DNA from: Deefgea salmonis
GTDB lineage: Bacteria > Pseudomonadota > Gammaproteobacteria > Burkholderiales > Chitinibacteraceae
Reading direction: 5' to 3'
Length of the DNA stretch: 64,000 bases
NCBI RefSeq assembly: GCF_020531905.1
Contig: NZ_JAJAWG010000002.1
Location: 62,001-126,000, forward strand
The translations under genes were made by a program, and so were the position numbers. A model generated the notes under the pieces. That model worked only from the letters and a program-made list of their open reading frames with translations, made no database searches and was not told where the DNA came from. Shown here piece by piece: positions 7,730 through 62,616 of this stretch (its first letter is position 1; every line of letters starts with the position of its first letter).

Positions 7730-8134
7730 ATGCACCGCACGGTCAAAAAATTCTTCATCTTTGCCGCTGTGGGCGTTTGCGGCACGGCGATTCAATATTT
7801 GGTGCTCTGGCTGGGCGTTGAGTTATTGGCGCTCAAAGCGGCCGTGGCATCAGGCATTGGCTATGCGCTGGGCTCGGTGGCGAATTATTTATTAAATTTC
7901 TTCTTCACGTTTAAACAGCATGGTCAGTCGCATCGAGAAGCCATCAGTAAGTTTTACACCATTACCGGCATCGGCTGGTGTATCAATACTGGCTTGATGG
8001 TGCTCTTAGTGGGGCATTGGCTTTGGGGCTATTGGCCAGCGCAATTATTGGCCACGGGGATTGGTTTGGTATGGAATTTTAGCGGTAGCCATTGGTGGGC
8101 GTTTCGACAAAAGCGAGCAGGGGGTATTGGGTAG
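7730..8134 (+). CDS. GtrA-family flippase-like protein
   Basis: A 134-residue membrane protein with four predicted TM segments in the GtrA pattern (KKFFIFAAVGVCGTAIQYLV, then NYLLNFFFTF). GtrA proteins are thought to flip polyprenyl-phosphate-linked sugars made by GtrB-type enzymes. ATG 7730 is preferred by homology; GTG 7628 would add 34 residues, and neither has a strong Shine-Dalgarno. The last codons (Gly-Ile-Gly-stop, GGTATTGGGTAG) lie inside the 47-bp repeat at 8123-8169, so the repeat sets the C-terminus. Confidence 0.88.
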   Translation: MHRTVKKFFIFAAVGVCGTAIQYLVLWLGVELLALKAAVASGIGYALGSVANYLLNFFFTFKQHGQSHREAISKFYTITGIGWCINTGLMVLLVGHWLWGYWPAQLLATGIGLVWNFSGSHWWAFRQKRAGGIG

Positions 8135-8169
8135 CTAGTATTGTAGAGTATGACTTGGAGTTATATACC
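8123..8169. repeat. 47-bp palindromic element, copy 1
   Basis: Begins GGTATTGGGT and ends ATATACC, 47 bp. The interior is poorly self-complementary. It covers the last four codons of gtrA including TAG, between convergent gtrA and yidB. The 36-bp repeat starts 29 bp beyond its end (arm extended from 8195). Confidence 0.75.
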
Positions 8170-8194
8170 CACGTATTTTTTGCTCTTTTGATTC

Positions 8195-8238
8195 GGGTGT
8201 TGATGGTTTTAAGTGCTTGCGGCACAGCATCAACACCC
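8195..8238 (-). repeat. 36-bp hairpin repeat, copy A (44 bp with extended arms)
   Basis: Outer arms GGGTGTTGATG and CATCAACACCC (11 bp perfect) enclose a small inner hairpin GTGC-CGCAA-GCAC on the minus strand. On the minus strand the 36-bp core GTTGATG...CATCAAC differs from copy B (62645-62680) at only two positions. It may also act as terminator for gtrA or yidB, though it lacks a T-run. Confidence 0.75.
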
Positions 8239-8258
8239 AATCTGAACATCAGCTGCAA

Positions 8259-8657
8259 TTAACCGAACAATTTACCTTTGATTAAATTCATCGCCGCACC
8301 CATCACATCAGGGCTGCCGGCTTCGATTTGGCCGTTTGGCGTTAAGCCATCGATTAATTGTGGCAAGAGTGTCGAGATTTGTCCTGCGGCAGTGGCTGGA
8401 TCAATGCCTAATTTACCAGCGATGCCGGCGACGGTTTCATTGCCGAGTACTGCTTCAATTTGCTCGCTGGAGATCGGTAGGTTTTGCCCGCTGGCCACCC
8501 ATGATTGTGCGATTTCACCTAAACCGCCATTTTGAAATTTTTCCACCACGCCAGCAACGCCGCCTTGTTGCTCAAGTAAGGTGCTGAGCATGCCCATTGC
8601 ACCTTCGCTATTGCTGCCACCGAGAAATTGACCAGCTAAAGAATCGAGTAAACCCAT
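8259..8657 (-). CDS. YidB-family protein (DUF937)
   Basis: A 132-residue soluble protein beginning MGLLDSLAGQFLGG, with a Gly/Gln-rich helical body (GGLGEIAQSWVASGQNLPIS, then LGNETVAGIAGKLGIDP) typical of YidB proteins. Function is unknown for the family. ATG 8657 is preceded by AGGA at suitable spacing. It stands alone between repeat copies on one side and the PAS-GGDEF-EAL gene on the other. Confidence 0.9.
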   Translation of the reverse strand: MGLLDSLAGQFLGGSNSEGAMGMLSTLLEQQGGVAGVVEKFQNGGLGEIAQSWVASGQNLPISSEQIEAVLGNETVAGIAGKLGIDPATAAGQISTLLPQLIDGLTPNGQIEAGSPDVMGAAMNLIKGKLFG

Positions 8658-8791
8658 GATATTTTCCTATGAAAGTGAAGGTGAAGAGCGCAACGCATGA
8701 TCTTGCTTGCGACTTATTCTTATGGAGGGGATCGATAAAAACAAGTTAAATTTTAGATTAGCTAGTGCGAGTTCAGCCAAGCATTGGCAAT

Positions 8792-10867
8792 TTATATTGT
8801 GGGTTTGGACTGATAGTGTTCAAAATTGCATTTAAATAAAACGGCAAATTCATCGGCGGGAATTGGGCGGCTTAATAAATAACCTTGAATTTGATCGCAC
8901 GCTGTTTTTTGTAAAAAGATTAATTGATCCGCGGTTTCTACGCCTTCGGCAATCAGGCGTAAATTCAAACTGCTGGCAATGCCGCAAATGGCGTTTACAA
9001 TCCCAGCGCTGCCGGGATTATCGGGCAGACCACGAATAAAGCTTTGGTCGATTTTAAGGTAGTCGAGCGTAAAGCGTTGTAAATACGATAAATTGGAATA
9101 GCCCGTGCCAAAGTCGTCAAGCGCCAAAGAAAACCCTGCGGCTTTTAGATTCAGCAAGAGACTGAGTGTCGCCTCGTCATTTTTCATCAGCATGGATTCG
9201 GTGAGTTCTAGTTCAATACGCTGGGCTTGAATTTGGTGTTGTTTTAGTTTACTCAGTAAGAGCTCGGTTAAATTGGCTTTAAATTGTTGCGCTGATAAAT
9301 TGATCGATAAACGATTGAGCTCGATTCCAGCTTGATCCCATTGCGCTAATTGCCCAATGGCTTCGGATAACACCCATTCGCCAATCGGTACAATGAGCCC
9401 GGTTTCTTCGGCAAAAGGAATAAATTCTGCGGGAGAAATAAAACCACGAATCGGATGCTGCCAGCGAATTAAAGCTTCAGCGCCCACAATATGGGTATTT
9501 TGCGTGTCGTATTGTGCCTGGTAAAATAGCTTTAATTCATTGCGCTCTAAGGCATGATGCAATTCGCTAGAGAGCTTTAAACGCGCCATTGAGCGTTGAT
9601 TCATTTCGGGCGAATAAAACAATAAATCTTGCTGCGCTTGTTTACCGCGATGCAGGGCCACGGCGGCTTGATTGATGAGCTTTTCGGCGTCGCGACCATC
9701 GTCCGGATAAATACTGATGCCGATATACGATTTGAGGAGTATTTCTTCGTCAGAGAGGACAAAAGGCTGGCTAATTTTAAGCAAAATTCTTTGCGCCACC
9801 ATCGCCGCATCATCACGGTGGCGAATATCAAATAAGCCAATATAAAACTCATCAGCCGCAAAGCGCGAAACCACGTCTTCATCGCGTAAGCTAGCGCGTA
9901 TTCTTTGGCCAACTTCGATTAAGACTTGGTCGGCGGCGGTATGGCCAAAAGAGTCGTTGAGCGCTTTAAAGCGGGCAATGTTAAAGCACAATAAAGCGCC
10001 ATGATGATGATTGCGGCGCGCCTCGCTGAGCGCTTGCTCAAGCAAAGTAAAGAGCATGGTGCGATTGGGGAGGTTGGTCAGCGGGTCAAAATAGGCGAGG
10101 CGATGCAATTGAGCTTCGGCGTGTTTTTTTTCTGTCAGGTCGGAAAAAATCGCAAAATAATGCGTCAGATCGCCTCGTTTATTTTTAACGCCGCTGATGG
10201 CCAAATGAATCGGATAGCGCTCGCCTGAGCCGCGCTCATCCCAAAGCTCACCTTCCCAGTGACCAATACGTCCCAGTAAATCGTACATCTGCTGCAAAAT
10301 TGACGATTCTCTTTGCTGCGCCAGCATAAAACTGGGCAGTTGCCCCAGCGTTTGCTCTAATTTTCGCTCAGTAATGTGGTGATACGCCGCATTACAACCC
10401 ACACAGCTAAAGCGCAAATTGGTAATCACAATCGCATCAGGCGCTTGCTCGAGAATGTGGCTATACAGCTGGTTTTTTTCTTCGACGGCCAATTGTTCGG
10501 TGATGTCGGTTAGGTAACCAATCATGCGAATGGGTTTTTGCTCGTCATTACGAATGAGCGTCAGGTGAATATTGGCCCAGAATACCGCGCCATTTTTTTT
10601 GCGGCGTAAAACTTCCATTTGCGCGTGGCCACTCATCATCACGGCATGCAGTAGCTCACTGTCGTCGCCGCTTTCATCGGCATACAGCATCAAAATATGC
10701 CGGCCCAGCACATCGTCGGCGGTATAGCCAAATAGCTGTTCAGCGCCTTTATTCCAGCCGGTAATATAGCCTTGTAAATCCAGAGTAATTAAGGAGGCAG
10801 CCAGATCATTAACAATCAAGCTGCTGGGGCCCAGTTCATTGAGCGTGGACACCTTACAGCGACTCAC
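8792..10867 (-). CDS. PAS-PAS-GGDEF-EAL protein, probable c-di-GMP phosphodiesterase
   Basis: A 691-residue cytoplasmic protein: PAS 1 (about 15-125, GWNKGAEQLFGYTADDV), PAS/PAC 2 (about 135-255), GGDEF-type domain (about 260-420), EAL domain (about 430-680). The GGDEF signature reads RFAADEF, so both glycines are alanine and cyclase activity is unlikely; an RDED I-site-like motif lies five residues before it. The EAL domain keeps EALIRWQHP, NLSAQQF, ELTES, DDFGTGYSNL, LKIDQSF and AEGVET, so c-di-GMP hydrolysis is expected, with the dead GGDEF possibly regulatory. The start is GTG 10867, overlapping the upstream HDOD gene by 14 bp, so the two are probably translated from one mRNA. Confidence 0.9.
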   Translation of the reverse strand: MSRCKVSTLNELGPSSLIVNDLAASLITLDLQGYITGWNKGAEQLFGYTADDVLGRHILMLYADESGDDSELLHAVMMSGHAQMEVLRRKKNGAVFWANIHLTLIRNDEQKPIRMIGYLTDITEQLAVEEKNQLYSHILEQAPDAIVITNLRFSCVGCNAAYHHITERKLEQTLGQLPSFMLAQQRESSILQQMYDLLGRIGHWEGELWDERGSGERYPIHLAISGVKNKRGDLTHYFAIFSDLTEKKHAEAQLHRLAYFDPLTNLPNRTMLFTLLEQALSEARRNHHHGALLCFNIARFKALNDSFGHTAADQVLIEVGQRIRASLRDEDVVSRFAADEFYIGLFDIRHRDDAAMVAQRILLKISQPFVLSDEEILLKSYIGISIYPDDGRDAEKLINQAAVALHRGKQAQQDLLFYSPEMNQRSMARLKLSSELHHALERNELKLFYQAQYDTQNTHIVGAEALIRWQHPIRGFISPAEFIPFAEETGLIVPIGEWVLSEAIGQLAQWDQAGIELNRLSINLSAQQFKANLTELLLSKLKQHQIQAQRIELELTESMLMKNDEATLSLLLNLKAAGFSLALDDFGTGYSNLSYLQRFTLDYLKIDQSFIRGLPDNPGSAGIVNAICGIASSLNLRLIAEGVETADQLIFLQKTACDQIQGYLLSRPIPADEFAVLFKCNFEHYQSKPTI

Positions 10868-11801
10868 GGACTAAGCGATGCACCCAAGCAATGGCTTGAA
10901 TTTCACTATTGACCCACGCTTGCTGCTTGGCGAGCAAGGGGCTGAGTAGGGCGTGCTGCGCATCGCCGGCTTCGAGTGCGCCAAGTTGCGCCAAGGCCGC
11001 GCCTAAAACACCATCGCCATCGATCAATGCTGCGCGTAAATTTTCATCCAGTGGCAATGGCGCGAGTAATTGCTGTAAAGGCTCACCAAACAGTCGATCC
11101 AGCAGCGACAGCATGCCGCATAAAAAAGCTTCGTCGGCGGGTGTATTGCCAAGCCAGCCGTGCTCGGCCCATTGCGCCATGCGTTTGCCACGCAGCGCTG
11201 CGGCTATCAAAAGAGCGGGCTTGCTGTTTTCACCGTATTGCTCGGCATAGATCAGTAGTTGTAGCCAGCGTTGCAGTTGGCGACGCCCCAGTAGGGTAAT
11301 GGCCTGGCGGATACTGCGTGCGGGCGTTGCGCTCCCCATACCCACTGAGTTGACTAAACGCAGTAAGTTCAGCATCAGTTGTGGGGCTTTAGCCAGTGCG
11401 GTTTCAAGTTGGGAAATTTCAGCATCGCTGACGATCAAGCTCAGCACTTCAAGTAGCACGGGTCGGCTTGGATTGCTGGTGCTGCTATGGCTTGATGCTT
11501 CGGTAAACCAAGGCCCGCAAACGGCATCATTGGCTTTGAGCTGATTTAAGTCTGCGGTATGTTGCACGTTAAAATACAGATGCCCGCCTTGTGGCAGTGC
11601 AATACCGTGTTCATCACGGATTAATGCGATCAATGGAGACGGGGTTGGTATGGCAGTTTCTTCGAGTAGCATGCACGGCAAGCTATGTAATTCATAGGTG
11701 TGGCAGGCCTCGCTGAGCGCATCGGCAGCATGTTGTGCGTGATGGGCAAAGAGTCCAGTCCAATTTTGCTGTGTATCCCAAACTAGCTCAAAAAAAATCA
11801 T
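10854..11801 (-). CDS. HDOD-domain signalling protein
   Basis: A 315-residue protein. The C-terminal half is an HDOD domain (about 125-310; VLLEVLSLIVSDAEISQLE, LMLNLLRLVNSVGMG, ITLLGRRQLQRWL). The N-terminal 120 residues look like the degenerate EAL-like half of YuxH-type proteins, without catalytic residues. HDOD proteins are non-catalytic and take part in signalling, often with c-di-GMP enzymes. ATG 11801 is used, with GAGAA about 9 nt upstream; TTG 11819 would add six residues. The gene overlaps the PAS-GGDEF-EAL gene downstream, so they are likely partners. Confidence 0.85.
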   Translation of the reverse strand: MIFFELVWDTQQNWTGLFAHHAQHAADALSEACHTYELHSLPCMLLEETAIPTPSPLIALIRDEHGIALPQGGHLYFNVQHTADLNQLKANDAVCGPWFTEASSHSSTSNPSRPVLLEVLSLIVSDAEISQLETALAKAPQLMLNLLRLVNSVGMGSATPARSIRQAITLLGRRQLQRWLQLLIYAEQYGENSKPALLIAAALRGKRMAQWAEHGWLGNTPADEAFLCGMLSLLDRLFGEPLQQLLAPLPLDENLRAALIDGDGVLGAALAQLGALEAGDAQHALLSPLLAKQQAWVNSEIQAIAWVHRLVRESL

Positions 11802-12135
11802 CGACTGCGTTCTCAACAATGTGTTTTTTTAAGGCTAGGACTTGGATCTACTTACGGCAAGATTTACTTTTTTGTATTTTGCTTTTGTTTTTATTGACAC
11901 CGAGTGGTAGATTCTATGGGCTTATTCGACGGCAAGCCATTTGAATCATGGCGATGGATTTGTTCTTGCGGCCGGCGTATTGGCACAAGCGCGTGTCGAT
12001 ATCGTATTTCTAATGACCTTGTACAGGTGTGAGTAAGGGATTGCCGGCGGTTTGGTTTTAGCGCCTGCAGTGAGCGACTTTCAAACTAAGATAAAGCGTC
12101 TGCAGCCTGACGGCGCGTAACGGAAGTGACTCATC
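11802..12135. other. Divergent intergenic region
   Basis: About 330 bp between the HDOD gene and the LOG gene. A TTGACA at 11894-11899 is the only good promoter-like hexamer, but no matching -10 at 16-18 bp is convincing. No repeats or small ORFs are supported. Confidence 0.4.
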
Positions 12136-12879: not shown

Positions 12880-12884
12880 TCTTA

Positions 12885-12914
12885 AGCGCCAAACGGCTAC
12901 AGCGGTTTGGCGCT
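12885..12914. terminator. Hairpin between convergent genes
   Basis: Arms AGCGCCAAAC and GTTTGGCGCT (10 bp perfect). The TAG of hemG (12897-12899) lies in the loop. There is no T-run, so this is probably a weak or factor-assisted terminator. Confidence 0.55.
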
Positions 12915-13436: not shown

Positions 13437-13533
13437 CCGCGCAAGTATAAGTGACAAGACGACGCTCGATATTGAGCGGCATCAGTTCGGCTCGTTCGCG
13501 TCGCCTTATTTTGAGCTGCGTTGACTGGCCGAT

Positions 13534-16203
13534 TTAGGGGCTTTTTTGCCCGCTGCTACGCTCTTGTCGCGGCGGTAGTGGTGAAAAATAACCCATAAAC
13601 AGCAGCAATATCCCGACTGCGATAAAAGCAACGATGCGCTCAATGCCGCTGATTTGCGACAGGTCAAAAACAAAAAGCTTAACGACGACGACCGTCAATA
13701 AGCTGGCGCCGACTAGCCATACATCACGTCTTAATTGCCGCGTTGCCAGCAGCATCAAGCTTAAGGCGAGTACGGTCCAGAAAATGGTTAAGCTCATTTG
13801 CACTTGCATTGAATGCATCAGCGCATCAAATTGATACGCAATGTGTTGGCTGTGATGCAGTGTTCTCAATAAAACCGCGTTCAGCCAGACAAAAATAGAC
13901 ATTCCTGCTGCTGCGAAGATGGCGCGATTTGGCCATGGATAATCAGGCCAAGTGGCTTTTAACTGTCGTAACCATAAAGCCAAACTGGCCAATGCCACGC
14001 ACTGCATTAAATCGATCGGATTCAATAGCGGTAGATAAAAGCCGGTTTGGGTATCGCCACTGGCCAGTGCGCTATCAAAACCCCATAGCCATAAAAAACC
14101 AGTGATGGGCAGCGCACCAATCAGCCAATAGATCAATTTAAAATCATGAATCGGCCAGCGGAGGCCTAATTTAATCAATAGCAGTAGAGCGAGAGTCGCG
14201 AGTAATGCCCACGCTGAAATAGACCACGTTCCATTGGGTATATGGCTGTTAACTATTAAATTAAAGTCATGTACGAATATACCCATGATTAGCCAGAGAC
14301 TGATTAAGTGTAGGCTGGCGGTAAAGCGTGGCATTGAGCGATCTTTGTCGTAGCGATGCAGCAGCCAATAATTGACTAGCAAAGCGACAGGCCAAACCAG
14401 ATGACTTAAGAAATAGCCCATTTGATCTAAGGCGATCAGGACTAGCCCAATCGGTAAGACTTGAGCTGGCCAGCGTGCGGTGTGCCAATAGCCGCGCCAA
14501 TAAATCCAGTTAAAAATCAGACTGGTCATTAGCGCAAACAGCAGCATGACTTGATTTTGCTGCTGCCAGCTCACAAAGCGATCAATCTCTGCGGCATACG
14601 TGCCCAGCCACCATAGCCAACCACCCAGCACAAACAGCCAGCCGACAATGCGTAATTTGTTTTGCGCCTGTGGCCAGTGCGACTGAACGTTGCGTTGTAA
14701 GCACCAGGCACTGAATAAGCTGCTGATGGCAATGATGTTGCCGCCGATAAATCCGGCATTCAAGATGGGCGTTGCGCCAAAATAATGCCCATCAATTAAA
14801 AAGCCAATACTCGCGAGCATTTGGAGTAATAAACCAAACGCCAGTGGCAGGCGGCGCTGTTGCAAAACACTGATCCAAACCACGCCAGCGCCTTCGATTG
14901 CCCAAATGGCGCTGCTTAGATGTGCATCAAAAGCGAGCGGCACTGCGAGGCTGGCAAAAATAACTCCAAGAGCAGTAAATGATTCGCCAATGCGTTTAAG
15001 TCCGCTATGGCGGCGTAAGGCATATGCCAGAACCCAATAAAATAAAGCCAGCGCCACCGCCGAATAGGCCAAGCCGTAACTCGTGTTTTGCAGCAAACAC
15101 CCTTGCAGGGCAAAGCAGACGATGGGCGTGCCAAATAGCAAAGTAGCATCGGTTGACGATGGATTTGGGCTGGGTTGGTGCCGCGCATATAAGACGGTGA
15201 TGGCGACATAAAATAAGAAAAATAAGATCAAAAACGGCTCAGTGCTGTTGAAAAACGCACTGCGATAAGTCAGCGTGCCCCAAAGCGTCGCAATGGCAAA
15301 GGTAAAGAAAAATCCGATTAAATTGAGCGAGCGCCAGGCTTTAAACCATGCCATCGCAAAAATACTGGCGTTTAAAATCGCGTAATAACTAAACAGCATG
15401 ACATGATTGCCGCTGCCATTAGCAACCAAAATCGGCGCTAAAAAGCCTCCACAAATGCCCATTACTGCCAATGAGCGCGCATTTTGTTTGAGTGCTAAGT
15501 AAGCCGAAACGATGCCGATAATCACCAGTAAAGTAAGGGTGAGTAACTCGGGCAAGAGTTGATACAGCTTGAGCGCGGCAAACGTCGTCATATACAGAAT
15601 GCCTATTGCGCCGCCTTGTAAGATTAAGGCGTAGGCGGTGTTTTTAAAGCGTAAACGCCAGCCAATACCCAGTAAGGCGCTGGCGCCGAGCACTAAGCCA
15701 CACAGCCGATATTCGATGGGCAGTAAATGATTATCGCTGGCGTATTTGAGCAAAAAACCAACGCCAAAAAATAAGATGACAATCCCCAGCCGAACAACGG
15801 TATTGCCACCGAAAAGCCAGGCTTGCAGTTGTAACGTTATTTTGGAGAACCAGCCGGGTAGGGCCATCGATTGAGTGCTCTCGCGGGTATTGTCGCCAGA
15901 GACCGTTGCGATCGTTTTGGCCGGAGGTGGTGTTGGTGTTGGGGTTGGGGTTGGGATTGCAGTGATCTCGGCGACCGTGGTTTGCTCAGTCTGAGCCCGC
16001 AATTGTTGCACTTCGAATTCGAGTTTTTGGATGCGATCTTGTAGTTGTTGTAATTGTTGCTGCCAATTAGGGACTGCTGCATTGGGGCGCTCGATGACAT
16101 AGCCAATCGCATAAGCGATGGCCGCGAGGACCAGTGCTAAAGGCCATTCAAAGAATTGCCAGCCCAAAATGAAACCGATTACAACAAGAAAAAACCGCAG
16201 CAT
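13534..16203 (-). CDS. DUF2339 polytopic membrane protein
   Basis: A protein of about 889 residues. Two N-terminal hydrophobic segments are followed by a short coiled coil (NWQQQLQQLQDRIQKLEFEV), a Pro-Thr linker with alternating PT residues, and about 20 or more TM segments to the end. This is the DUF2339 architecture, whose function is unknown. ATG 16203 has AAAGG 5 nt upstream; TTG 16218 is an alternative. The linker is encoded by a G/T-rich simple repeat at about 15927-15957, where length change by slippage is possible. Single gene, downstream of the sRNA region. Confidence 0.88.
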   Translation of the reverse strand: MLRFFLVVIGFILGWQFFEWPLALVLAAIAYAIGYVIERPNAAVPNWQQQLQQLQDRIQKLEFEVQQLRAQTEQTTVAEITAIPTPTPTPTPPPAKTIATVSGDNTRESTQSMALPGWFSKITLQLQAWLFGGNTVVRLGIVILFFGVGFLLKYASDNHLLPIEYRLCGLVLGASALLGIGWRLRFKNTAYALILQGGAIGILYMTTFAALKLYQLLPELLTLTLLVIIGIVSAYLALKQNARSLAVMGICGGFLAPILVANGSGNHVMLFSYYAILNASIFAMAWFKAWRSLNLIGFFFTFAIATLWGTLTYRSAFFNSTEPFLILFFLFYVAITVLYARHQPSPNPSSTDATLLFGTPIVCFALQGCLLQNTSYGLAYSAVALALFYWVLAYALRRHSGLKRIGESFTALGVIFASLAVPLAFDAHLSSAIWAIEGAGVVWISVLQQRRLPLAFGLLLQMLASIGFLIDGHYFGATPILNAGFIGGNIIAISSLFSAWCLQRNVQSHWPQAQNKLRIVGWLFVLGGWLWWLGTYAAEIDRFVSWQQQNQVMLLFALMTSLIFNWIYWRGYWHTARWPAQVLPIGLVLIALDQMGYFLSHLVWPVALLVNYWLLHRYDKDRSMPRFTASLHLISLWLIMGIFVHDFNLIVNSHIPNGTWSISAWALLATLALLLLIKLGLRWPIHDFKLIYWLIGALPITGFLWLWGFDSALASGDTQTGFYLPLLNPIDLMQCVALASLALWLRQLKATWPDYPWPNRAIFAAAGMSIFVWLNAVLLRTLHHSQHIAYQFDALMHSMQVQMSLTIFWTVLALSLMLLATRQLRRDVWLVGASLLTVVVVKLFVFDLSQISGIERIVAFIAVGILLLFMGYFSPLPPRQERSSGQKSP

Positions 16204-16389
16204 AAAAACCTTTGCCAATGAAGTCGTGTGGGGTAGTGTAAGGTGTCGTTTCGAGGTTAAAAGTTAATGAGTCTAATGTCGCTCTATATGAAGAAAAAGT
16301 CTATTTTTTCAAAGTAAAGAACTTTTTATTTTGGTGGTAAAAATACAACGAATTTTGTTTTTGGGTGGCGTAATATCCATATATGGGAT

Positions 16390-16740: not shown

Positions 16741-16752
16741 GCTAGGCGCGAA

Positions 16753-21773: not shown

Positions 21774-21820
21774 GGTATATGACTCTAGCCTTTATTTAAT
21801 AAAGGCTGGATTAATATACC
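21774..21820. repeat. 47-bp palindromic element, copy 2
   Basis: Begins GGTATATGAC, ends ATATACC, with a centre CTTTATTTAATAAAG. Folding it on itself pairs 21 of 23 positions (one of these G-T). It begins at the base after the arsR stop and contains the stop and last two codons (Val-Tyr) of tlpA. Flanking TAA/TTA extend the palindrome by three bases on each side. It sits between two convergent genes and is a likely terminator-like structure. Confidence 0.8.
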
Positions 21821-24182: not shown

Positions 24183-24594
24183 GCCTTACCTTTTGTTCGG
24201 ATGCCTGTTGGCTTATCCTTTTCTTGAAGTCATGTCTTTGATTTGGCTTGCCGATACCATCGGCACTTTTTGGACGCTGATTTGGGTTATCGCATCATTT
24301 TGCTTGGGTATTTTGATGTTACGTCATCACCGCTTGGCAGTCGGTTTAAAGCTGATGCACGATGTTCGCACTGGCCAAGTCGGAATTAATAGTTTACTAG
24401 GCATTGCGCGCTATTTTATTGCTGCGGTGTTGTTGCTGATTCCGGGTTTAATCAGCGATGCAATCGCTTTGGTTTTGCTTTTGCCGTGGAAAAACAAATC
24501 CACCATCGGCCAGCCTAGGCCAGACGATGGCATCATTGAGGCCGAGTATCGCCGAGTTGATCCGGTCGATACCACGCCACGTATTGATCGCTAA
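24181..24594 (+). CDS. fxsA: FxsA-family membrane protein
   Basis: A 137-residue protein with 3-4 TM segments and the family motif around LLLIPGLISDAIALVLLLP. FxsA overproduction in E. coli blocks exclusion of phage T7 by F plasmid; its normal role is unknown. ATG 24181 with GGAG 6 nt upstream is chosen; a longer frame (from 24121) lies antisense to cutA and is not family-like. A hairpin AAGCTAA / TTAGCTT (24593-24613) overlaps its stop and separates it from the convergent DUF167 gene. Confidence 0.88.
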   Translation: MPYLLFGCLLAYPFLEVMSLIWLADTIGTFWTLIWVIASFCLGILMLRHHRLAVGLKLMHDVRTGQVGINSLLGIARYFIAAVLLLIPGLISDAIALVLLLPWKNKSTIGQPRPDDGIIEAEYRRVDPVDTTPRIDR

Positions 24595-24595
24595 G

Positions 24596-24889
24596 CTAAG
24601 CTGGGTTTAGCTTCTCGGGCGATACCTTGCTTCCAGTGATGGTGAAAACTTTATTTTGTGTGTTTTCACCACTACTGAGCCCCACTTGCTGTGGACGAAC
24701 GCCAAATTGATCAGCCAGCCAAGTGACCAAACACACATTCATTTTGTGGCTAACAGGTGGCGTTGCCACTCTGATTTTTAAGGCATCCCCATAATAACCA
24801 AGACATTCGGTTTTTTTGCCACTGGCTTGTACGTGTAAACGTAAAATGAGGGTTGTTCCGTTTTGAGTGAACCAGCGATTGTGCGCCAT
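24596..24889 (-). CDS. DUF167 (YggU-family) protein
   Basis: A 97-residue protein with the family pattern GTTLILRLHVQASGKK, YYGDALKIRVATPPV and SSGENTQNKVFTI. No biochemical function is established. Its ATG overlaps the TAA of yggT by one base (TAATG on the minus strand). Last gene of the yggS-proC-yggT-DUF167 operon. Confidence 0.9.
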   Translation of the reverse strand: MAHNRWFTQNGTTLILRLHVQASGKKTECLGYYGDALKIRVATPPVSHKMNVCLVTWLADQFGVRPQQVGLSSGENTQNKVFTITGSKVSPEKLNPA

Positions 24890-31781: not shown

Positions 31782-31828
31782 GGTATCTTACTCTGGCGCT
31801 TTATTTAAAGAGCGTGCAAGGTAATACC
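31782..31828. repeat. 47-bp palindromic element, copy 3 (inside the uvrA 3' end)
   Basis: Begins GGTATCTTAC, ends TAATACC, with a centre CGCTTTATTTAAAGAGCG. About 41 of its 47 bases lie within uvrA and encode its last 13 residues and stop. Flanks G/CC extend the terminal arms. Confidence 0.7.
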
Positions 31829-36013: not shown

Positions 36014-36060
36014 GGTATTGAGCTGTAGGCTTTGAATTTAATGCGCTTTGGTGATATACC
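36014..36060. repeat. 47-bp palindromic element, copy 4
   Basis: Begins GGTATTGAGC, ends ATATACC, with GTAGGCTTT and an ATTTAAT centre. Interior pairing is imperfect. It lies about 125 bp upstream of the MFS gene, in a same-strand gap. Confidence 0.75.
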
Positions 36061-38280: not shown

Positions 38281-38327
38281 TGTATATGGCTGTAGCTATT
38301 ATTTAATAATGCTTGCAGTCATATACC
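38281..38327. repeat. 47-bp palindromic element, copy 5
   Basis: Begins TGTATATGGC (first base T instead of G), ends CATATACC, with a centre TATTATTTAATAAT. It folds along nearly its full length with several G-T pairs and one internal mismatch. It lies between convergent ssb and the OsmC-YcaO gene, 20 bp from the latter's stop. Confidence 0.8.
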
Positions 38328-46610: not shown

Positions 46611-46657
46611 GGTATTGCTTTGTTGGCTTTATAAAATATGGCTTAGATGGATATACC
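46611..46657. repeat. 47-bp palindromic element, copy 6
   Basis: Begins GGTATTGCTT, ends ATATACC, with TTGGCTTTATAAAATATGGC in the middle. It lies in the 132-bp gap between patD and gabT, inside a same-strand operon, 26 bp upstream of gabT. Confidence 0.75.
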
Positions 46658-48183: not shown

Positions 48184-49014
48184 TTATTTACTGGCACCGG
48201 CGGTGTCTTCAGTGCCTTGGGTTAATCGCCAAGCCAATAAAATCGGCAGGGTGGTGAGCAACATAATGCCCAGTGCCACAACATTGGTGACTGGCACATC
48301 GCGAGGACGCCCCAGCTGATTGAGTAGCCAAATCGGTAAGGTTTGTTGTTGGCCCGCGGTAAAGGTGGTGACGATAATTTCGTCAAAGCTCAAAGCAAAA
48401 GCCAGCACCGCACCGGCGAGTAAAGAGGTTGCGAGTTGCGGCAGTAACACATAGCGAAAGGTTTGCCAGCCATCGGCACCTAAATCCATCGACGCTTCGA
48501 TGAGGCTATACGCGCTACGGCGCAGGCGAGCGACGACATTGTTATAAATCACCACCACGCAAAACGTAGCGTGGCCGATGGCGATGGTCCAAAAGCCGGT
48601 TTCGATATCGGCTAAACGAAAGGCGGAAAGCAGCGCAATCCCCGTCACAATGCCGGGCAGCGCAATCGGCAAAATCAGCACCAGCGTAATGGCTTCTTTA
48701 CCAAAGAAATTACGGCGGTATAGCGCTGCAGCCGCCATTGTGCCTAGCACTAAGGCCGATACGGTAGCGATGAGTGCAATCTGAATCGACAGCCAAACTG
48801 CATCGAGTAAATCGCTGCGCTCGCTAGCGGCAATAAACCAGCGCAAAGTAAATCCTTGCAAAGGAAAGCTAAACGCTGATTCTTCGGTATTAAACGCATA
48901 CAGCGCGACCATGATGATCGGAAAATGCAAAAAGAAAATACCGCCAACTGCCAGTGTGGTTAACCACCACGGCGCACGAGGGGTATTGGTATCTGTGGGA
49001 TTAAAGCGCATCAA
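48184..49014 (-). CDS. Polyamine-type ABC transporter permease (YdcV-like)
   Basis: A 276-residue inner-membrane permease of the PotC/YdcV type with about six TM segments and the ABC-interacting EAA loop ([20 protein letters not shown]). Overlaps the other permease gene by 14 bp and is followed 41 bp later by patD. Imports putrescine/spermidine-type cations in the family; direct substrate not proven. Confidence 0.92.
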
Positions 49015-52219: not shown

Positions 52220-52797
52220 GATGGCGCTCCAAGAGGTGGTTAACTGATTGTAGGCAATGCCTGGGGCGCGACTAGTTGGCATTGCCAATCGACACTATCG
52301 AAAAAACCGATAGCGTGGCTGGCCATATTGGGGTTGCGGCAGCGGCAAATGAGTCAGCGCGGCTTGGCAGGGTGGTTTTGCATCGCGAATGCGGTAGCTG
52401 CTCGGCGTTGGTCTTGAGGCTAATGCATCAATTCAAAGTCAATTGCGGTGTATTGCTCGCAAGGTTGAAGTGAATTAGTTTTTAATTTTTTATTGGGTAT
52501 ATAGATCTAGCTTTTGATATGTATTACTTCTATTGATATACCTGCAATATATTTAGGTTTGGTTTTAGCGTAGTGATCGGCTGATCTTGCTGGCGTGGGC
52601 AATGCTTGGCTTTCGCTGTGCGGAGTTGTTGGGCGTTAAACTGCCGTGTTGCGCTGCGTAATGCCCGCCGTAGCGGCAGGGGGTGCTTAGTGCTGTGCCA
52701 TCGATTTATTAGAACGCACAGCAGCAGAATTCTTTTTTTTGGATTGCAAAGTGCCAAGTCGATACTGCAAATCAATGTGGAATCAATGCAACAGACC
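52220..52797. other. Intergenic region upstream of the polyamine operon
   Basis: 578 bp. Holds the TTGGC-ATT-GCCAA dyad (52276-52288), a small CTATCG/CGATAG hairpin (52295-52312), AT-rich sequence and 47-bp element copy 7 (52496-52542). A frame at 52606-52827 is unsupported. Confidence 0.5.
52496..52542. repeat. 47-bp palindromic element, copy 7
   Basis: Begins GGTATATAGA, ends GATATACC, with TCTAGCTTTTGATATG inside. Terminal seven bases pair perfectly, interior weakly. Between the LysR gene and ydcS. Confidence 0.75.
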
Positions 52798-53891: not shown

Positions 53892-53922
53892 AAAAAAAGC
53901 CAGACAAAATCTGGCTTTTTTT
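53892..53922. terminator. Intrinsic terminator (bidirectional)
   Basis: Arms AAAAAGCCAGA and TCTGGCTTTTT with CAAAA loop. It lies downstream of hdeA (minus strand). Confidence 0.88.
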
Positions 53923-53962
53923 GCAGTGCGATTACGATGACTATTGCGATGACATATCGCGA

Positions 53963-55322: not shown

Positions 55323-55325
55323 TTC

Positions 55326-55670: not shown

Positions 55671-55779
55671 GATCTGTCTGTGGGTGCAAAGTCAGCTCGA
55701 GTGTGCCACAGGCCTTGCCGCAACGCTTGCTTTAGCGCAACTTCCGCGTGCGCAAACTCCGTTTGCCCCCTCTGTATGG

Positions 55780-55826
55780 GTATATTGCCATGAGTATTGA
55801 ATACAATGCGATGGCAGTAAATACCC
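55780..55826. repeat. 47-bp palindromic element, copy 8
   Basis: Begins GGTATATTGC, ends AAATACC, flanked by G and CC. Interior stems TTGCCAT / ATGGCAGTAA (offset by two) and GTATTGAATAC. In the 210-bp gap between the oxidoreductase stop and the small membrane protein gene. Confidence 0.75.
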
Positions 55827-55880
55827 CGGTAGGGTGTGCAAATCGTTAAGATTTGCTCACGCGGTAGATCCATGGGTGAT

Positions 55881-57284
55881 TTAGGCTTTGTCCGACTTTC
55901 CGGCGGCGTTGGCAAAGCGGGCGAGGATTTTGTCAAAAAACATCGGGCGTTGATCGTTGTCTTCGCAGGCTTCTTTGCGGCGGATGGCGTTGCGTACCAA
56001 CATACTGCCTAGCCAGCGTATTGGCTCGGGCGGAAAGTAACCCAGTGGCCCACTGACCAAGGCGCATTGCGCCCAACCGTCTTTTTCCCCTCGCACCATA
56101 CTGCTTAAAATTTGCCCGCCCAAATAGCACGTGCTCACGCCGTTGCCAGAATAACCAAAGCCGTAGCAAATATTGGGCTGTTGATCCAGATAGCCAAAAA
56201 ACGGCAAACCGGTGACGGAACGATCGGACGCACCATTCCACGAGGCGGCAATTGGCACCTCAGCCAAACGCGGGAAAAAGTCGTGCAGCGTTTGTTTTAG
56301 CTGGTTTTGGTAGCGGCTAGCTTGGTCAAATTCGGCGAGCATTTTGCCGCCAAAAGCAAAGGTATTGCCGCCTTTGCCCAGCATTAAACGGCCATCGCTG
56401 GTGCTGCGATAGTAATGAACAAATATCCGCGAATCGCAAATCGCCGCGCCATGCGTGAGGCCAAGCGCTTGGATTGCTTCGGGGCAGGGCTCGGTAATCA
56501 CCATATCGGACGACACAATCGCAATGCTGCGCGCAAATTGGCGGAACTGGCTGGCCATCCACGCATTCATCGCCAACACCACTTGCTGGGCAACCACTTC
56601 GCCATCGGTGGTGATCACGCGCGCAGGCTGGCCGTATTCAATGCGCTGCATGGCGGTGTTTTCATAAATCAGCACACCCAAGGATTCGGCAACGCGCGCC
56701 ATGCCGCGTACCAACAGTCCCGGATGCACGCTGCCCGCAATTGGCGAAAATTCTCCGGATAAATGCCGAGTTGAACCGGCGATTTTTTGTACTTCATCGC
56801 GCGGTAAGGTCTGCCAGCTATTGATGTCATGCGCGTTGAGCGCCGCCAATACGCCATCCATACTGCCGCTTTGTGCGCGATTAGTGGCGGTATACAGCGC
56901 GCCGTCAATACGCAGATCGGCTTGCAGCTGATACTGCGCACAAAAGTCCCGAATCGCGTAAACAGCGGCTTCTGAGGCTTTGACAATTTTGACGGCTTCA
57001 GCGGCACCAAATAGCCGCGTCAGCGTGCTTAATTTGGGGGCTAAAGTTAGCACGCAACCGCCATTGCGCCCCGATGCGCCACTGCCGCACAGGCCTTTGT
57101 CGATGATGACAATCTGCAGCTCGGGCTGCTGTTGTTTGAGTAAAATCGCCGTCCACAAACCGGTATAGCCGCCGCCGACAATGCACACATCAGCGTGGCG
57201 CTTGCCATTCAAGCTTGGCCGTGGCGGGCGGTTTTCTTGCGCTAGCGCGTCGGCAAACCACCAAGGTTGAAAAGTCTCACTCAT
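55881..57284 (-). CDS. FAD-dependent aminophosphonate oxidoreductase
   Basis: A 467-residue DAO-fold flavoprotein: N-terminal ADP-binding [15 protein letters not shown], then [17 protein letters not shown] and the C-terminal FAD contact [18 protein letters not shown]. Matches the proteins annotated as putative aminophosphonate oxidoreductase found with phnW/phnX. In related clusters, such enzymes oxidise N-alkylated or native AEP to phosphonoacetaldehyde, widening the substrate range. Its ATG overlaps the phnX TGA by 4 bp, so it is co-translated. Substrate is inferred from context. Confidence 0.82.
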
Positions 57285-58108: not shown

Positions 58109-58119
58109 GTTGGATTTCC

Positions 58120-59253
58120 TTATTGGATAGTTGAGTGATTAGGTTGGCTGTTTAACCAACCCAATTGAGTGAGGACGTCGATGATGGCGTGCGCGGCTTG
58201 TTGCAACTGCGCGGGGTCAATGGCGCCAATGCAGCCAACGCGAAAGGTTTCTACCGTGGTGAGTTTGCCCGGATAGAGTAAAAATCCGCGCTGGCTCATT
58301 GCTTGATAAAAAGCGGCAAATTGATATTCGGGATGGCGCGGTGCGTGGAAGGTCAAAATAATTGGCGCTTGTAACTCTGGCGCTAAAAATAAAGCTAAAC
58401 CGGCTTGGCCTAATGCGCTGATTAATACGTTGGCATTGGCGGTATAGCGCGCCAAGCGAGTAGGGCGGCCGCCTTCAGCTTGATACTGGTCAATCGCGGC
58501 GCGTAATGCCGCCACCACATGAGTCGGCGGCGTAAAGCGCCATTGCCCTGTGCGCTGTAAATAATCGTATTGATCAGCCAAATCGAGCGCCAGCGATGGA
58601 CTATTGCCATGGGCTAGCGCGATGGCGCTGGTTTTGGCAATCACAAAACCCATGCCGGGAACGCCTTCTAAACATTTGCCCGAGGCGGCGATGAGCGCGC
58701 AAATCGGCATCTGTGCTAAATCAATGTCCAGCGCGCCAAATGACGACATCGCATCCACAATCAGCTCAGCGCCATGGCCGGCGACGATGTCGGCGATCTC
58801 GCTTAAGGGGTTTAAAAGGCCGGTGGCGGTTTCGCAATGAATCAGGCCCACGTAACCAATGCTGGGATCAGCGCTCAGCGCCGCATCGAGCGCAGTTGGA
58901 TCGACAGGCACGCCGTCTGGCCAGCGCAGTGTCGCGACATTTAAGCCGATTTTCTGCGCGATTTTATGCATTCTTTGCCCGTAAGCACCGTTGTCGAGCA
59001 CCAGTATTTTGCTGCTCTTATTTACCAGCGTGCCGATAGCCGCTTCAACGGCAAAAGTGCCCGAGCCTTGCAATGGAATGCAGCAGTGCTGCGCTTGGCC
59101 GTTGGCAATCGCCAATAGATCAGCGCACACTGATGCGGTTAGGGCGTTAAAGTCGCCATCCCATGAGCCCCAGTCTTTGAGCATTGCGGTGCGCGTTGCC
59201 AAGCTGGTGCTCAGTGGCCCGGGGGTGAGTAAGATTTTTTCTTGGCGCATCAT
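58120..59253 (-). CDS. phnW: 2-aminoethylphosphonate:pyruvate transaminase
   Basis: A 377-residue class V PLP enzyme: [38 protein letters not shown] and [14 protein letters not shown] (PLP lysine). Converts AEP plus pyruvate to phosphonoacetaldehyde plus alanine. Two adjacent ATGs (59253 and 59250) follow AAAGG. A CATCTAGATG palindrome ends 9 bp upstream and overlaps the leader. First of the phnW-phnX-oxidoreductase operon. Confidence 0.96.
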
Positions 59254-59260
59254 AGTCCTT

Positions 59261-59272
59261 TCATCTAGATGA
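59261..59272. promoter_or_regulatory. Putative PhnR operator in the phnW leader
   Basis: TCATCTAGATGA, a perfect 12-bp palindrome followed by ATTTTTAT, identical in its CATCTAGATGAATTTTT part to the site before phnS. Close to the ATG, where a bound repressor would block elongation or RNA access. Confidence 0.65.
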
Positions 59273-59307
59273 ATTTTTATCCCCGAAAAAAGCGCATAAA
59301 GCGCTGG

Positions 59308-59354
59308 GGTATTGCTGTGTGATTAATATTTAATAAAGCTGGTAGTTAAATACC
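59308..59354. repeat. 47-bp palindromic element, copy 9
   Basis: Begins GGTATTGCTG, ends TTAAATACC, with an ATATTTAAT centre. Ends pair over six bases; interior largely unpaired. Confidence 0.72.
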
Positions 59355-59401
59355 TACTGGTTCTGATCAGGTGTTAATGCTGGTTAAAGCATCGCGGCAT
59401 T

Positions 59402-59496
59402 CCCTCTCCCTTGATGGGAGAGGGTTAGGGTGAGGGTGAAACTACGGCGTGCAGCTCAACACCCCCATCCCAGCCTTCCCCCATCAAGGGGGAAGG
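59402..59496. repeat. REP-like double hairpin
   Basis: Hairpin 1: CCCTCTCCC-TTGAT-GGGAGAGGG (59402-59424). Hairpin 2: CCTTCCCCC-ATCAA-GGGGGAAGG (59474-59496). GGGTGAGGGTG and CACCCCCATCCC between them make the whole 95 bp an imperfect palindrome. This is the pattern of a widespread class of intergenic proteobacterial repeats. Confidence 0.85.
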
Positions 59497-59582
59497 AGCT
59501 ACAGTCCCGCGACTCAAACGACTGTGATTTAACGTATCAACATCAAATCTGAACAAAACCCAAAGGGTTTGCGCGCTGATCA

Positions 59583-59618
59583 GGTACCGTGCCACAGGCA
59601 CTTAAAACCACGAATACC
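59583..59618 (+). repeat. Degenerate copy C of the 36-bp hairpin repeat
   Basis: The central CCGTGCCACAGGCACTTAA matches copies A and B, but the outer arms are GGTA and TACC instead of GTTGATG/CATCAAC. Confidence 0.6.
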
Positions 59619-59664
59619 TAAGCCAAGCCAAACCGTTGCTACGCTGAGATTGAGCCCTGCCTCC

Positions 59665-61359
59665 TCATTCTTGTCGCCGCCAGCGTTGGCTGCGATGTTG
59701 TAAAAAATGACTGATCACTGCAAAAACAGCGCAGGCGGCGGCGGAGCTGATGACGATTAATGTCGCCATCGCTGCTGAAGCGGCGGTATCGCCAGCGTCG
59801 TCCATATTGAGCACCGCCACCGAGGCCAGCATGGTGTCGGAGGTGTAAATAAACACCACTGCCGAGACGGTGGTCATGGTGGCAATAAAGAAATAACGCG
59901 CAATTTCTAGGGCTGCTGGTAGGCAAATCGGCAGCGTCACTCGCCAAGCGGTGATCCAAAACGGCACTTTGAGCGAGGCGGCGACCAATTCAAACTCTGC
60001 GTCCAGTTGCTTGAGTGCGGTGACGGCAGTGAGATGCGCGGTGGTGTAAAAATGCGCGATCGAGCACAGCACCAAGATCGACATCGTGCCGTAGAGCGCA
60101 TGGAGCGGATTGCTCGGATGATTAAAAAAGAACACATAACCCAAACCCAGCACCAACCCTGGTACTGCCATCGGCAGCATGGCTAATAAATGCAAGATGG
60201 GTCGCCAGCCACGGCAAGTGGCGACTTTTTCGGTGAGCCACGCGCCGGTAAACACCAAAATCGAGCCAAATAGTGCGGTATACGCCGACATTTTTAAGCT
60301 ATTGCTAAACGCGCTCCAGCCACCACCGTCCATATCGTCAAAATTAAAATGCTGTAAAGACAGTTGCATTTGATACGGCCATTGCTTAATCAGCGCCGCC
60401 GCGATGGCGGTGCCAAGGATCAGTAGCAAGGCGCCGCTGACGACGAGGCAAAACAATAAAGCGCAGCGATCTAGCCATGGGGTGGCCTTGATATGCAGCG
60501 TTTGCGCTCGCGCCGTGAGTAGCGCTTGCTGCTTTTTTTGTGCGTAATGATCCAGCACAAAAGACAAGACCGCCGGCACCAAGAGCAGCAAACCAATGAC
60601 TGCGCCGCGCGAGAAGTTTTGCTGACCGATCACTTGCTTATACGCTTCAAGCGCCAGCACATTAAACGAGCCGCCGATGACTTTGGCCACGCCAAAATCA
60701 GTCATCACCAAGGTAAACACCACCACTGCCGACGACAGCACGCCGTAGCGAACGCTAGGCAAAGTGACGCTGAACCATTGCCGGCAGCGGCCTGCGCCGA
60801 GCGCGCTCGCCGCTTCGTATAAGCGGCCATCGGCAACGCGCAAAGCGGTAAGTAAAATCATCATTGCGTGCGGAAAAGTAAAAAACACTTGGCCGATCAC
60901 AATCCCCCAAAAGCCATAAATACTGCCGTCAGGAAACCACGACTTCAGCAAACCTTGATTGCCAAATAAATACACCAGCGCAATCCCCGGTAGCAGCGAC
61001 GGTGCTAATAGCGGAATCAAGGCCAACATTCGCAGCACGCCTTTGGCCGGCATGGCCGAGCGGGTGAGCGCGGCGGCGTATAAATACGCCAGTGGAATCA
61101 CAATCAGCGTGCTCATTAGCGCTAATTTGACGCTATTGAATAAGCTTTGCAGCAAGCTGGGCGAATCGAGTACCGCTTCAATACTGCCCCAGCCCCATTG
61201 CTGAGTTTTAGGATCAAACAAAGCTTGGCTTAAAATCGCCAATAAGGGCCCAGCTAAAATCAGTAGCAAAATCAGCACAATGCCGCCAGCAATCAGCGTG
61301 GCCCAGTATTCATTGCGCCAGCGCGCGTGCGGTGCTTCGAGGGTGAGGGTTGGGTTCAT
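59665..61359 (-). CDS. phnUV: 2-aminoethylphosphonate ABC transporter permease (fused PhnU-PhnV)
   Basis: A 564-residue permease with two six-TM halves joined by a TM segment around 290-320, each with an EAA loop (EAASALGAGRCRQWFSVTLP, VAASLKVPFWITAWRVTLP). This fused form is normal for this AEP transporter type. ATG overlaps the phnT TGA by 4 bp. A frame antisense to the phnT start is absent. Imports AEP with phnS and phnT. Confidence 0.92.
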   Translation of the reverse strand: MNPTLTLEAPHARWRNEYWATLIAGGIVLILLLILAGPLLAILSQALFDPKTQQWGWGSIEAVLDSPSLLQSLFNSVKLALMSTLIVIPLAYLYAAALTRSAMPAKGVLRMLALIPLLAPSLLPGIALVYLFGNQGLLKSWFPDGSIYGFWGIVIGQVFFTFPHAMMILLTALRVADGRLYEAASALGAGRCRQWFSVTLPSVRYGVLSSAVVVFTLVMTDFGVAKVIGGSFNVLALEAYKQVIGQQNFSRGAVIGLLLLVPAVLSFVLDHYAQKKQQALLTARAQTLHIKATPWLDRCALLFCLVVSGALLLILGTAIAAALIKQWPYQMQLSLQHFNFDDMDGGGWSAFSNSLKMSAYTALFGSILVFTGAWLTEKVATCRGWRPILHLLAMLPMAVPGLVLGLGYVFFFNHPSNPLHALYGTMSILVLCSIAHFYTTAHLTAVTALKQLDAEFELVAASLKVPFWITAWRVTLPICLPAALEIARYFFIATMTTVSAVVFIYTSDTMLASVAVLNMDDAGDTAASAAMATLIVISSAAACAVFAVISHFLQHRSQRWRRQE

Positions 61360-62456
61360 GCGCTCACCTCGGGCAAAAAGCAGCGCAGCTTGTCGGCAGG
61401 CAAATAAATCGGAATCAGTTGCTGCTCGGCAAGGCGCAATTGCGCCATTTCGCGATGGCTAATAATGACTTCGAGCTCAATGCCATCCCAATCATTGACC
61501 AACAGCCGCAGTCGGTAAACGCTGCCTAACAGCTCAAGCTGCAGTAACTTTCCTAAACCCACTTGCGGATCATTGCGCCATTGCGGCAATAGCTCAATGT
61601 CTTCTGGGCGAATAAACACATCGTAGTGTTGGCCTTGCACCAAAGCATTGGCGCGATGCGTGGCCAGCGTGTGCCGACCTAATTGCACCTGATGCGGGCT
61701 GACCGCAAGGGTGTTGAGCCAGTTGCAATGGCCGACAAAGCTGGCGACAAAACGGCTAGCAGGGTGTTGATAGATTTCAGCTGGCGTGCCAATTTGCTCG
61801 ATGACGCCGTGATTCATCACGACGATCCGGTCGGCCATGGTGAGCGCTTCTTCCTGGTCGTGCGTCACCATGATGGTGGTGATGCCCAGTTGCTGCTGCA
61901 GCGCTTTGATTTCGCCGCGTAAATGCGTGCGAACTTGTGCGTCGAGCGCCGAGAGCGGCTCGTCAAGTAACAGTAAATTCGGTGAGGTAGCCAAAGCGCG
62001 CGCCAGCGCAACGCGTTGTTGTTGGCCACCAGAAATTTGTGACGGATACTGTTCGGCCAAAGCCGAAAGGCCGATTAAATTGAGTAATTCGCTGACGCGG
62101 CGTTGCTGATCTTCAGAGCGACCTTTGAGGCCATAGGCGATATTGCGTGCGATCGTGAGATTGGGAAACAGTGCATACGATTGAAACACAATGCCGTAAT
62201 CGCGTTGATTGGGGGCGGCGTGGGTGATATCGCGGCCCGCTTGAGCGATTAGCCCGCGATCACACGATTCAAGCCCGGCAATGATGCGCAGCAAAGTGGT
62301 TTTGCCGCAGCCAGACGGCCCCAATAAGCAAACAAATTCGCCTTTATTCACGGCCAGCGAGATATCGCGCAAAGCGCTAAATGCGCCAAAATTTTTATTC
62401 ACGCCATGAATGGTCAATTCAGCGTGCTGGGTGGCGATGGCGGGTGCTCGGTTCAT
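61356..62456 (-). CDS. phnT: 2-aminoethylphosphonate ABC transporter ATPase
   Basis: A 366-residue ATPase: Walker A GPSGCGKTTLLR, signature ISGGQQQRVALARAL, Walker B LLLDEPLSALD, C-terminal TOBE-like domain. AAGGA precedes ATG 62456. The 258-bp gap to phnS holds two hairpin repeats. Confidence 0.93.
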   Translation of the reverse strand: MNRAPAIATQHAELTIHGVNKNFGAFSALRDISLAVNKGEFVCLLGPSGCGKTTLLRIIAGLESCDRGLIAQAGRDITHAAPNQRDYGIVFQSYALFPNLTIARNIAYGLKGRSEDQQRRVSELLNLIGLSALAEQYPSQISGGQQQRVALARALATSPNLLLLDEPLSALDAQVRTHLRGEIKALQQQLGITTIMVTHDQEEALTMADRIVVMNHGVIEQIGTPAEIYQHPASRFVASFVGHCNWLNTLAVSPHQVQLGRHTLATHRANALVQGQHYDVFIRPEDIELLPQWRNDPQVGLGKLLQLELLGSVYRLRLLVNDWDGIELEVIISHREMAQLRLAEQQLIPIYLPADKLRCFLPEVSA

Positions 62457-62569
62457 ACGAAGTCCTTACGGTGGCTGGCCTTTCATGCAGTAGACCCAAA
62501 ACAATGCTGCCCTACACTTGCTGGTACAGGATGTTGTTGCGCGGTGGCGCGGGTTAAATGATTTGTAGG

Positions 62570-62616
62570 GGTATCTCCATGTATCTCATATTTCAAATGA
62601 GATACATGGAGATACC
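62570..62616. repeat. 47-bp palindromic element, copy 10 (perfect hairpin)
   Basis: Begins GGTATCTCCATG, ends CATGGAGATACC. Two 20-bp arms pair without a mismatch around a 7-nt loop ATTTCAA. Located 98 bp after phnS (minus strand) and 113 bp before phnT, within the same operon. Confidence 0.85.

Follow-up and report, generated by a model that had tools for sequence, protein, structure and literature searches.

A 64,000-nucleotide stretch of the Deefgea salmonis genome (contig NZ_JAJAWG010000002.1, positions 62,001 to 126,000 of the forward strand; hereafter the window) carries dispersed palindromic elements of 47 bp that run from GGTAT to ATACC, raising the question of what holds their ends and length constant while their interiors diverge. 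The analysis described here points to a DNA site that is very probably read by a protein and that evolved in place, and not to a mobile element. A preliminary description of this DNA had listed ten copies. All ten are in the sequence with the ends and length claimed for them (nine GGTAT..ATACC and one, at 38281, TGTAT..ATACC) and nine starts were right, the copy given as 55780 beginning at 55779; the list was incomplete, as an exact copy at 14237, inside an open reading frame (ORF), had been overlooked.

Number, anatomy and distribution of the sites

Within the window, the GGTAT..ATACC pair occurred 10 times at a spacing of 37 and 0 or 1 times at every other spacing from 0 to 150. Over the whole of the same genome (G000; relatives are likewise given by handle), the ten-base form GGTAT-N37-ATACC had 387 matches and its control, the reversed pattern, had 2; the genome-wide count no higher than chance that would have spoken against the preliminary description was thus not observed. 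Among one-mismatch sites in the G000 sample the outermost base took the mismatch in 47 of 63, which indicates that what stays invariant is an 8-bp core, GTAT-N37-ATAC, and that the outer G..C is only a preference (67–71% per end). Core counts were made on sampled DNA with other spacings as the control. The window held 17 copies (mean 0.63 and maximum 4 at other spacings), G000 held 124 in 508 kb (mean 4.8), which extrapolates to ~770 per genome, and the relatives held 131 in 600 kb (G001; 6.6), 34 in 180 kb (G002; 2.0), 99 in 400 kb (G011; 3.7) and 76 in 440 kb (G016; 1.9). Core density was therefore ~170–240 per Mb, or an extrapolated 600–870 sites per genome.

When symmetrised, the sites gave a logo that reads R-GGTAT-n-K-nnn-T-n-Y-A-R-S-C-Y-W-T, followed by an A/T-rich centre and the mirror image. 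The strongest patches were GGTAT, the T..YAR block and the centre, and positions 8–9 carried little information (0.05–0.20 bits). Blocks near positions 3, 13–14 and 24 are spaced about one helical turn apart, placing the two GGTAT ends four turns from each other. The logo was essentially the same in the three genera of the family that bear the element in number (g1, g6 and g11), with small genus-specific interior preferences such as a CCATTT-like sequence in g11. The strengths of the two arms correlated (0.48). Strong half-sites were also in excess outside full sites (28 versus 3 in the reversed control at a score >15, in the G000 and G001 samples), mostly in genes, and some of these "solitary" half-sites belong to 48-bp sites or to sites whose other arm is damaged. 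The fixed length asserted in the preliminary description holds generally, the exceptions being rare 48-bp variants: two strong-armed G001 sites (L178:18546 and L169:15210) have a spacing of 38. The rigid spacing, the symmetric logo and a core that is unchanged between species give good support to its further suggestion that a protein constrains a length which stays fixed despite sequence divergence.

Across 43 genomes of the family, the ten-base form was present in 259–542 copies in all 15 genomes of the three genera (seven of g1, six of g6 and two of g11) and in 0–8 copies in the other 28, which represent eight genera. A sample of 399 genomes from the order contained no further lineage with more than 8 copies, and a pattern with four more fixed positions was found 0 or 1 times in 273 other genomes of the class versus 83 times in the own genome. 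A UvrA tree of 30 genomes joined g1 and g6 in a clade (100/99) and put g11 elsewhere, with its placement unresolved; one row of this tree (G021) has an implausibly long branch and is probably a wrongly cut ORF. In viral contigs at least 80 loci held one site each, approximately the chance expectation. Along two complete chromosomes the ten-base form occurred 1–5 times per 20 kb (20 stretches, G011) and 0–4 times (18 stretches, G001), with no region-wide gap.

All in-gene and gap figures rest on a home-made gene caller trained on codon usage. The copies had been described as lying between genes or at their ends; however, 49 of the 124 core sites in the own genome were inside coding sequence, as were 58 of 131 in G001, 46 of 99 in G011 and 26 of 76 in G016 (34–46%), and they were spread along the genes. 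When the interiors of in-gene core matches were scored against an in-gene null (95% point, 0.8), 20–34% did not exceed that point, and the interiors of two or three window matches (56889, 58441 and perhaps 3897) were chance-like. Part of the in-gene matches are thus coding coincidences, and ligA and nusA examples may be among them. Convergent gaps were occupied in 37–41% of cases, tandem gaps in 10–13% and divergent gaps in 2–5% (3/60, 2/61 and 1/44) in G000, G001 and G011; the corresponding values in G016 were 27, 11 and 6%.

The sites were spread evenly or slightly more than evenly, with variance-to-mean ratios of 20-kb counts of 0.58–0.98 in five genomes (below the 5% level only in G001; p = 0.04), and pairs closer than 1 kb were rarer than expected (3 versus 8.4 in G000a and 4 versus 9.2 in G001a). 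Accessory DNA held few sites in a small sample: 1 in 30.6 kb of G000a versus 47 in 213 kb of shared DNA, 3 in 33.7 kb of G002a and, less clearly, 2 in 14.8 kb of G001a, while shared DNA carried 212–220 per Mb. Two accessory blocks, one of 15 and one of 26 kb, hold 0 and 1 site, respectively. One 15-kb block outside the window (G000:C19:175224-190158; GC 0.45) has no site and no match in the sampled G001 and G002 stretches.

Conservation of the core and origin in place

In 96 ortholog comparisons among G000, G001 and G002, whose aligned blocks were mostly 85–96% identical, none of 768 core bases had changed, whereas the interiors differed at 271 of 1850 intergenic and 138 of 1702 in-gene positions (8–15%). 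The result was the same for sites with good interiors (0/584 core bases; 50 intergenic and 23 in-gene comparisons). Counting both directions, the site itself was kept in 192 of 192 alignable comparisons, one of which was an alignment-gap case with the site present on inspection; sites less than 800–900 bp from the edge of a segment did not enter the count, and 66 of the 258 comparisons lacked an ortholog that could be aligned, in many cases because the corresponding DNA fell outside the sampled stretches. The core is not absolutely fixed, as that in nadC was lost by a single change in G005.

Positions are shared over longer distances as well. At the 3′ end of uvrA a core site starts ≤53 bp from the stop codon in 5/5 g1 and 4/4 g6 genomes examined, and there is none in 18 other genomes of the family (the 2 of g11 included) or in representatives of other families (0/3). 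Genera g6 and g1 had in common 10 of the 22 in-gene sites that could be tested and 16 of the 36 at 3′ ends (a directional count to which G000 and G001 both contribute); the figures were 0/6 and 6/23 for g11 versus g1 and 2/5 and 2/9 for g11 versus g6. Few positions in g11 are therefore common with g1 and g6, yet a site in phoH is common to all three genera. The g11 sites may reflect a common origin with turnover or, in part, independent gain.

Two genes show how sites came into being. A 26-residue segment of nadC is gapless and of the same length in seven g1 genomes and 17 genomes of site-less genera (24 of 30 loci; six g6 loci were left out of the comparison). The site is present in 6/7 g1 genomes, a Tyr is found in 6/7 g1 versus 0/17 others, and G-N-T stands in 7/7 g1 where 17/17 others have G-x-A. 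In phoH, the site was present in 14/14 examined genomes of the three genera versus 0/16 others, within the gapless conserved segment GPAGTGKTYLAV..DALERD; the codons ACG-TAT are used by every carrier, the 16 other genomes having ACC or ACT at this place, and every carrier ends in GAT-AC, an ending found in 2/16 others. Because both segments are gapless relative to site-less genera, both sites were made by substitution within reading frames. This origin in place is shown for two genes, with point mutation and short recombination tracts not separated.

The preliminary description had named a recombinase or transposase as one possible constraint and had proposed looking for empty sites in relatives. 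Flanking direct repeats, as left by target duplication, were not above chance in 53 copies (2-bp repeats, 5 versus 3.4 and 6 versus 4.8 expected; 3–10 bp, 0 or 1), and no empty site was met among the 192 alignable comparisons. Together with the codon-built, gapless sites in nadC and phoH, these results led us to reject an insertion sequence, a miniature inverted-repeat transposable element or a RAYT-linked repeat.

The arms of intergenic copies paired with one another beyond what the consensus imposes (z of 3.5, 3.0 and 4.3 at positions 6, 8 and 10), also at uninformative positions, and where both sides of a paired intergenic position had changed, 11 of 16 stayed paired (from overlapping species pairs, which are not independent). 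In-gene copies had no such excess, and since they are equally conserved, the site does not need to form a hairpin. The intergenic pairing would be sufficiently explained by template-switch repair acting on quasi-palindromes where the DNA is unconstrained. An RNA fold, also put forward at the outset, is thus not supported as the main constraint: the extra pairing is intergenic only and there were 0/768 core changes of any kind.

Copies in the window

The table collects twelve copies followed by the weaker and doubtful core matches. At 62570–62616 the arms are fully complementary in G000 and nearly so in G002; in G001 the left arm is different and the right arm similar, a pattern that template-switch correction of a single arm would produce.

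Copies of the element and core matches in the window (exact, ten-base form GGTAT-N37-ATACC; interior, interior score)
Feature	Position	Ends	Interior	Location	Relatives
Copy	8123..8169	exact	13.5	overlaps 3′ end of + strand gene	core kept in G001, G002, G005
Copy overlooked earlier	14237..14283	exact	15.9	inside ORF 13534-16218	core kept in G005; no aligned region in G001/G002
Copy, near-perfect hairpin	21774..21820	exact	25.3	overlaps gene 3′ end	core kept in three relatives
Copy	24580..24626	CGTAT..ATACC, core exact	8.8	at gene 3′ end	kept in three relatives
Copy	31782..31828	exact	17.3	overlaps uvrA 3′ end	
Copy	36014..36060	exact	22.9	intergenic	core kept in three relatives though flanks strongly diverged
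Copy	38281..38327	TGTAT..ATACC, core exact	22.4	intergenic, downstream of YcaO gene	TGTAT kept in three relatives, both arms changed
Copy	46611..46657	exact	25.5	intergenic	kept in G001, G005; no alignment in G002
Copy	52496..52542	exact	19.9	intergenic	core kept in G001, G005
Copy	55779..55825	exact	14.2	intergenic	kept in G001
Copy	59308..59354	exact	15.2	intergenic	kept in G001, G002
Copy, perfect 20-bp palindrome arms	62570..62616	exact	20.6	intergenic	kept in G001, G002
Weaker copy	356..402	AGTAT..ATACC, core exact	3.9 (above null 95% point of 0.8)	in gene	
Weaker copy	48717..48763	GGTAT..ATACG, core exact	3.2	in gene	
Doubtful core match	3897..3943	core exact	0.9 (edge of null)	in gene	
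Core match, probably chance	56889..56935		−5.2 (within null)	in gene	
Core match, probably chance	58441..58487		−1.0 (within null)	in gene	

Candidate readers of the site

The in-place origin, the tolerance of sites within genes, the near-invariance, the avoidance of promoters, the preference for the core genome and the scarcity of close pairs all resemble published uptake signals, and on these likenesses a palindromic signal of the uptake type is the reading that we place first, if tentatively. According to this model, each copy would be a dyad-symmetric recognition site that a symmetric protein pair could read from one face. A surface receptor of natural transformation would prefer DNA bearing the site, gripping the two half-sites symmetrically, with the A/T-rich centre serving as a hinge where the double strand would bend into the pore. 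Preferred uptake followed by recombination between relatives would then spread new sites and repair damaged ones.

The likeness is to uptake signals as reported in passages of three papers (PMC2397512, PMC7811141 and PMC1939737). Such signals are considered to accumulate because fragments that carry them are preferentially taken up and recombined. The DNA uptake sequence (DUS) is described in parts of PMC2397512 as highly conserved, with hundreds to thousands of near-invariant copies that lie partly in genes and at permissive places of the core genome, and not in recently acquired genes; a section of PMC1939737 puts 35–65% of uptake signals inside ORFs. DUS bacteria and the Chitinibacteraceae apparently share an order, and passages of PMC3630211 report dyad-symmetric DUS pairs in Simonsiella and Kingella, taken there as a hint of recognition by a dimer. 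The slight genus-specific interior preferences of the element are dialect-like. The DUS differs in being 10–12 bp long with a unit that is not palindromic, whereas the element has two half-sites at one rigid spacing over 47–49 bp, and five neisserial DUS-type 10–11-mers gave 0–2 matches each in the G000, G001 and G011 samples. The uptake signal sequence (USS), as treated in sections of PMC7811141 and PMC12616744, is likewise long, combining a strong core with A/T-rich segments placed helical turns from it; the former has it arise through point mutation and not insertion, but the USS is not palindromic, has an unrelated core and occurs about once per kb (same passages of PMC7811141). As the length and dyad symmetry of the element are unlike those of the usual DUS and USS, we do not class it as a member of either, only as working like one if this inference is right.

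ComEC matches were found in 43/43 family genomes (42 over the cut-off) and also in 12/14 control genomes, and pilins matching the ComP_DUS model were found in 43/43 and 0/14, respectively. The G001 ComEC match is split into two parts ~47 kb apart on one strand (G001:C1:1328768-1329103 and 1376755-1378275), as if a large element lay inside the gene, and G017 and G047 have similar two-piece matches. Since the site-less genera also have ComEC and these pilins, their presence permits the uptake reading and does not support it.

Several observations weigh against an uptake role. Both ComEC and the pilins are equally common in the 28 site-less genomes, and a pilin tree of 69 sequences, those with an ORF among 70 taken from the 116 ComP_DUS-model matches, contained no clade made up exclusively of all three site-bearing genera, the small clades that mix them being g1 with g6 (5 rows, 89/86) and g11 with g1 (3 rows, 95/88). 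The sites are several times less dense than USS, singly mutated cores with a good interior are few (~7–11% of intact ones after background), and uptake leaves the pairing excess of intergenic copies unexplained. Palindromy is more typical of the site of an intracellular dimer; known DUS and USS cores measure 9–12 bp, the USS being longer when its A/T-rich segments are included; and a strong preference for convergent gaps is not, to our knowledge, a mark of uptake signals. A literature search found no precedent for a 47-bp fixed-spacing palindrome as an uptake signal, and passages of PMC2397512 trace many new DUS to recombination rather than point mutation.

A close rival, possible but somewhat doubtful, is that the sites belong to a chromosome-organising protein restricted to this lineage, which as a tetramer or dimer of dimers would occupy 47–49 bp and bridge or bound the DNA every ~4–5 kb. 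The symmetric, helically phased logo with its rigid spacing and the conservation of the core are consistent with this model, as are the under-dispersed sites and the absence of a region-wide gap in the sampled stretches of G011 and G001; avoidance of divergent gaps and preference for convergent ones would be expected if occupancy disturbs promoters. However, if a site were required every few kb, the accessory blocks of 15 and 26 kb with 0 and 1 site would be surprising, and selection would have to build hundreds of long sites singly, each with eight fixed core bases and many preferred ones. No such protein was found, and the seven divergent-gap sites in stretches of G000, G001, G002, G011, G005 and G004, considered as a clue to an autoregulated promoter, point to no regulator. 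Compared with uptake, an organising protein accounts better for the palindrome and the even spread and less well for the scarcity in accessory DNA. The matS and parS sites and those of Noc and SlmA are likewise palindromic and bound by a dedicated protein (here a putative one); they are ~13–20 bp long, present in tens of copies or fewer and often regional, in contrast to the ~47 bp and several hundred chromosome-wide copies of the element. That a dedicated protein folds or partitions the whole chromosome through these sites, an architectural code that would bend the codons and amino acids of phoH and nadC, is rather unlikely.

Less probable still is a site of another DNA-acting system, either a protective or self-marking sequence for a nuclease or defence system or a signal in replication or repair. 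The lineage restriction, the scarcity in accessory DNA and the pressure to build sites in genes would suit such a system; no candidate was identified, and a signal that is read in one direction, such as Chi, is not readily reconciled with palindromy.

We consider a transcription or RNA device at gene ends, whether a bidirectional terminator, a roadblock or a processed mRNA hairpin, quite improbable. Such a device would account for the occupancy of convergent gaps (37–41% in three genomes and 27% in G016) and for the extra pairing of intergenic arms, but 34–46% of the sites lie inside genes and along their length, where that pairing excess is absent, and the core letters are invariant, with no compensating changes. 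Neither T-runs reading toward intergenic sites (49/402 flanks versus 80/754 in the control) nor those reading away (57 versus 82) were in clear excess, unlike the hairpin and U-run of an intrinsic terminator, and the window had 0 Rfam matches above the gathering score.

Despite the inverted-repeat ends, the hundreds of copies and the near-fixed length, decayed miniature mobile elements with ends conserved for a transposase or recombinase are a most improbable source, given the lack of flanking duplications, the gapless in-gene sites, the 192 comparisons free of an empty site and a fixed core that stands beside near-informationless positions 8–9, unlike decay from a single ancestor. REP, BIME and REPIN elements, Correia elements and dRS3 are also short palindromes in many, largely intergenic copies, and dRS3 shares conserved ends with a variable middle; these families are, or derive from, repeats copied or moved as units. 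The present element differs in that its tested copies arose in place and in that many of its copies sit inside genes.

A search of the literature, with most subscription journals outside its reach, found no description of the 47-bp element. If the sites are uptake signals, they would represent a new, long and truly palindromic kind, and the idea that a dimer grips double-stranded DNA and threads it at a hinge would be directly testable. If they are architectural, they would amount to a genome-wide folding code for which we know of no bacterial parallel. Either way, 47-bp sites in housekeeping genes have steered the choice of codons and amino acids, a demand at the level of DNA that prevails over freedom at the level of protein.

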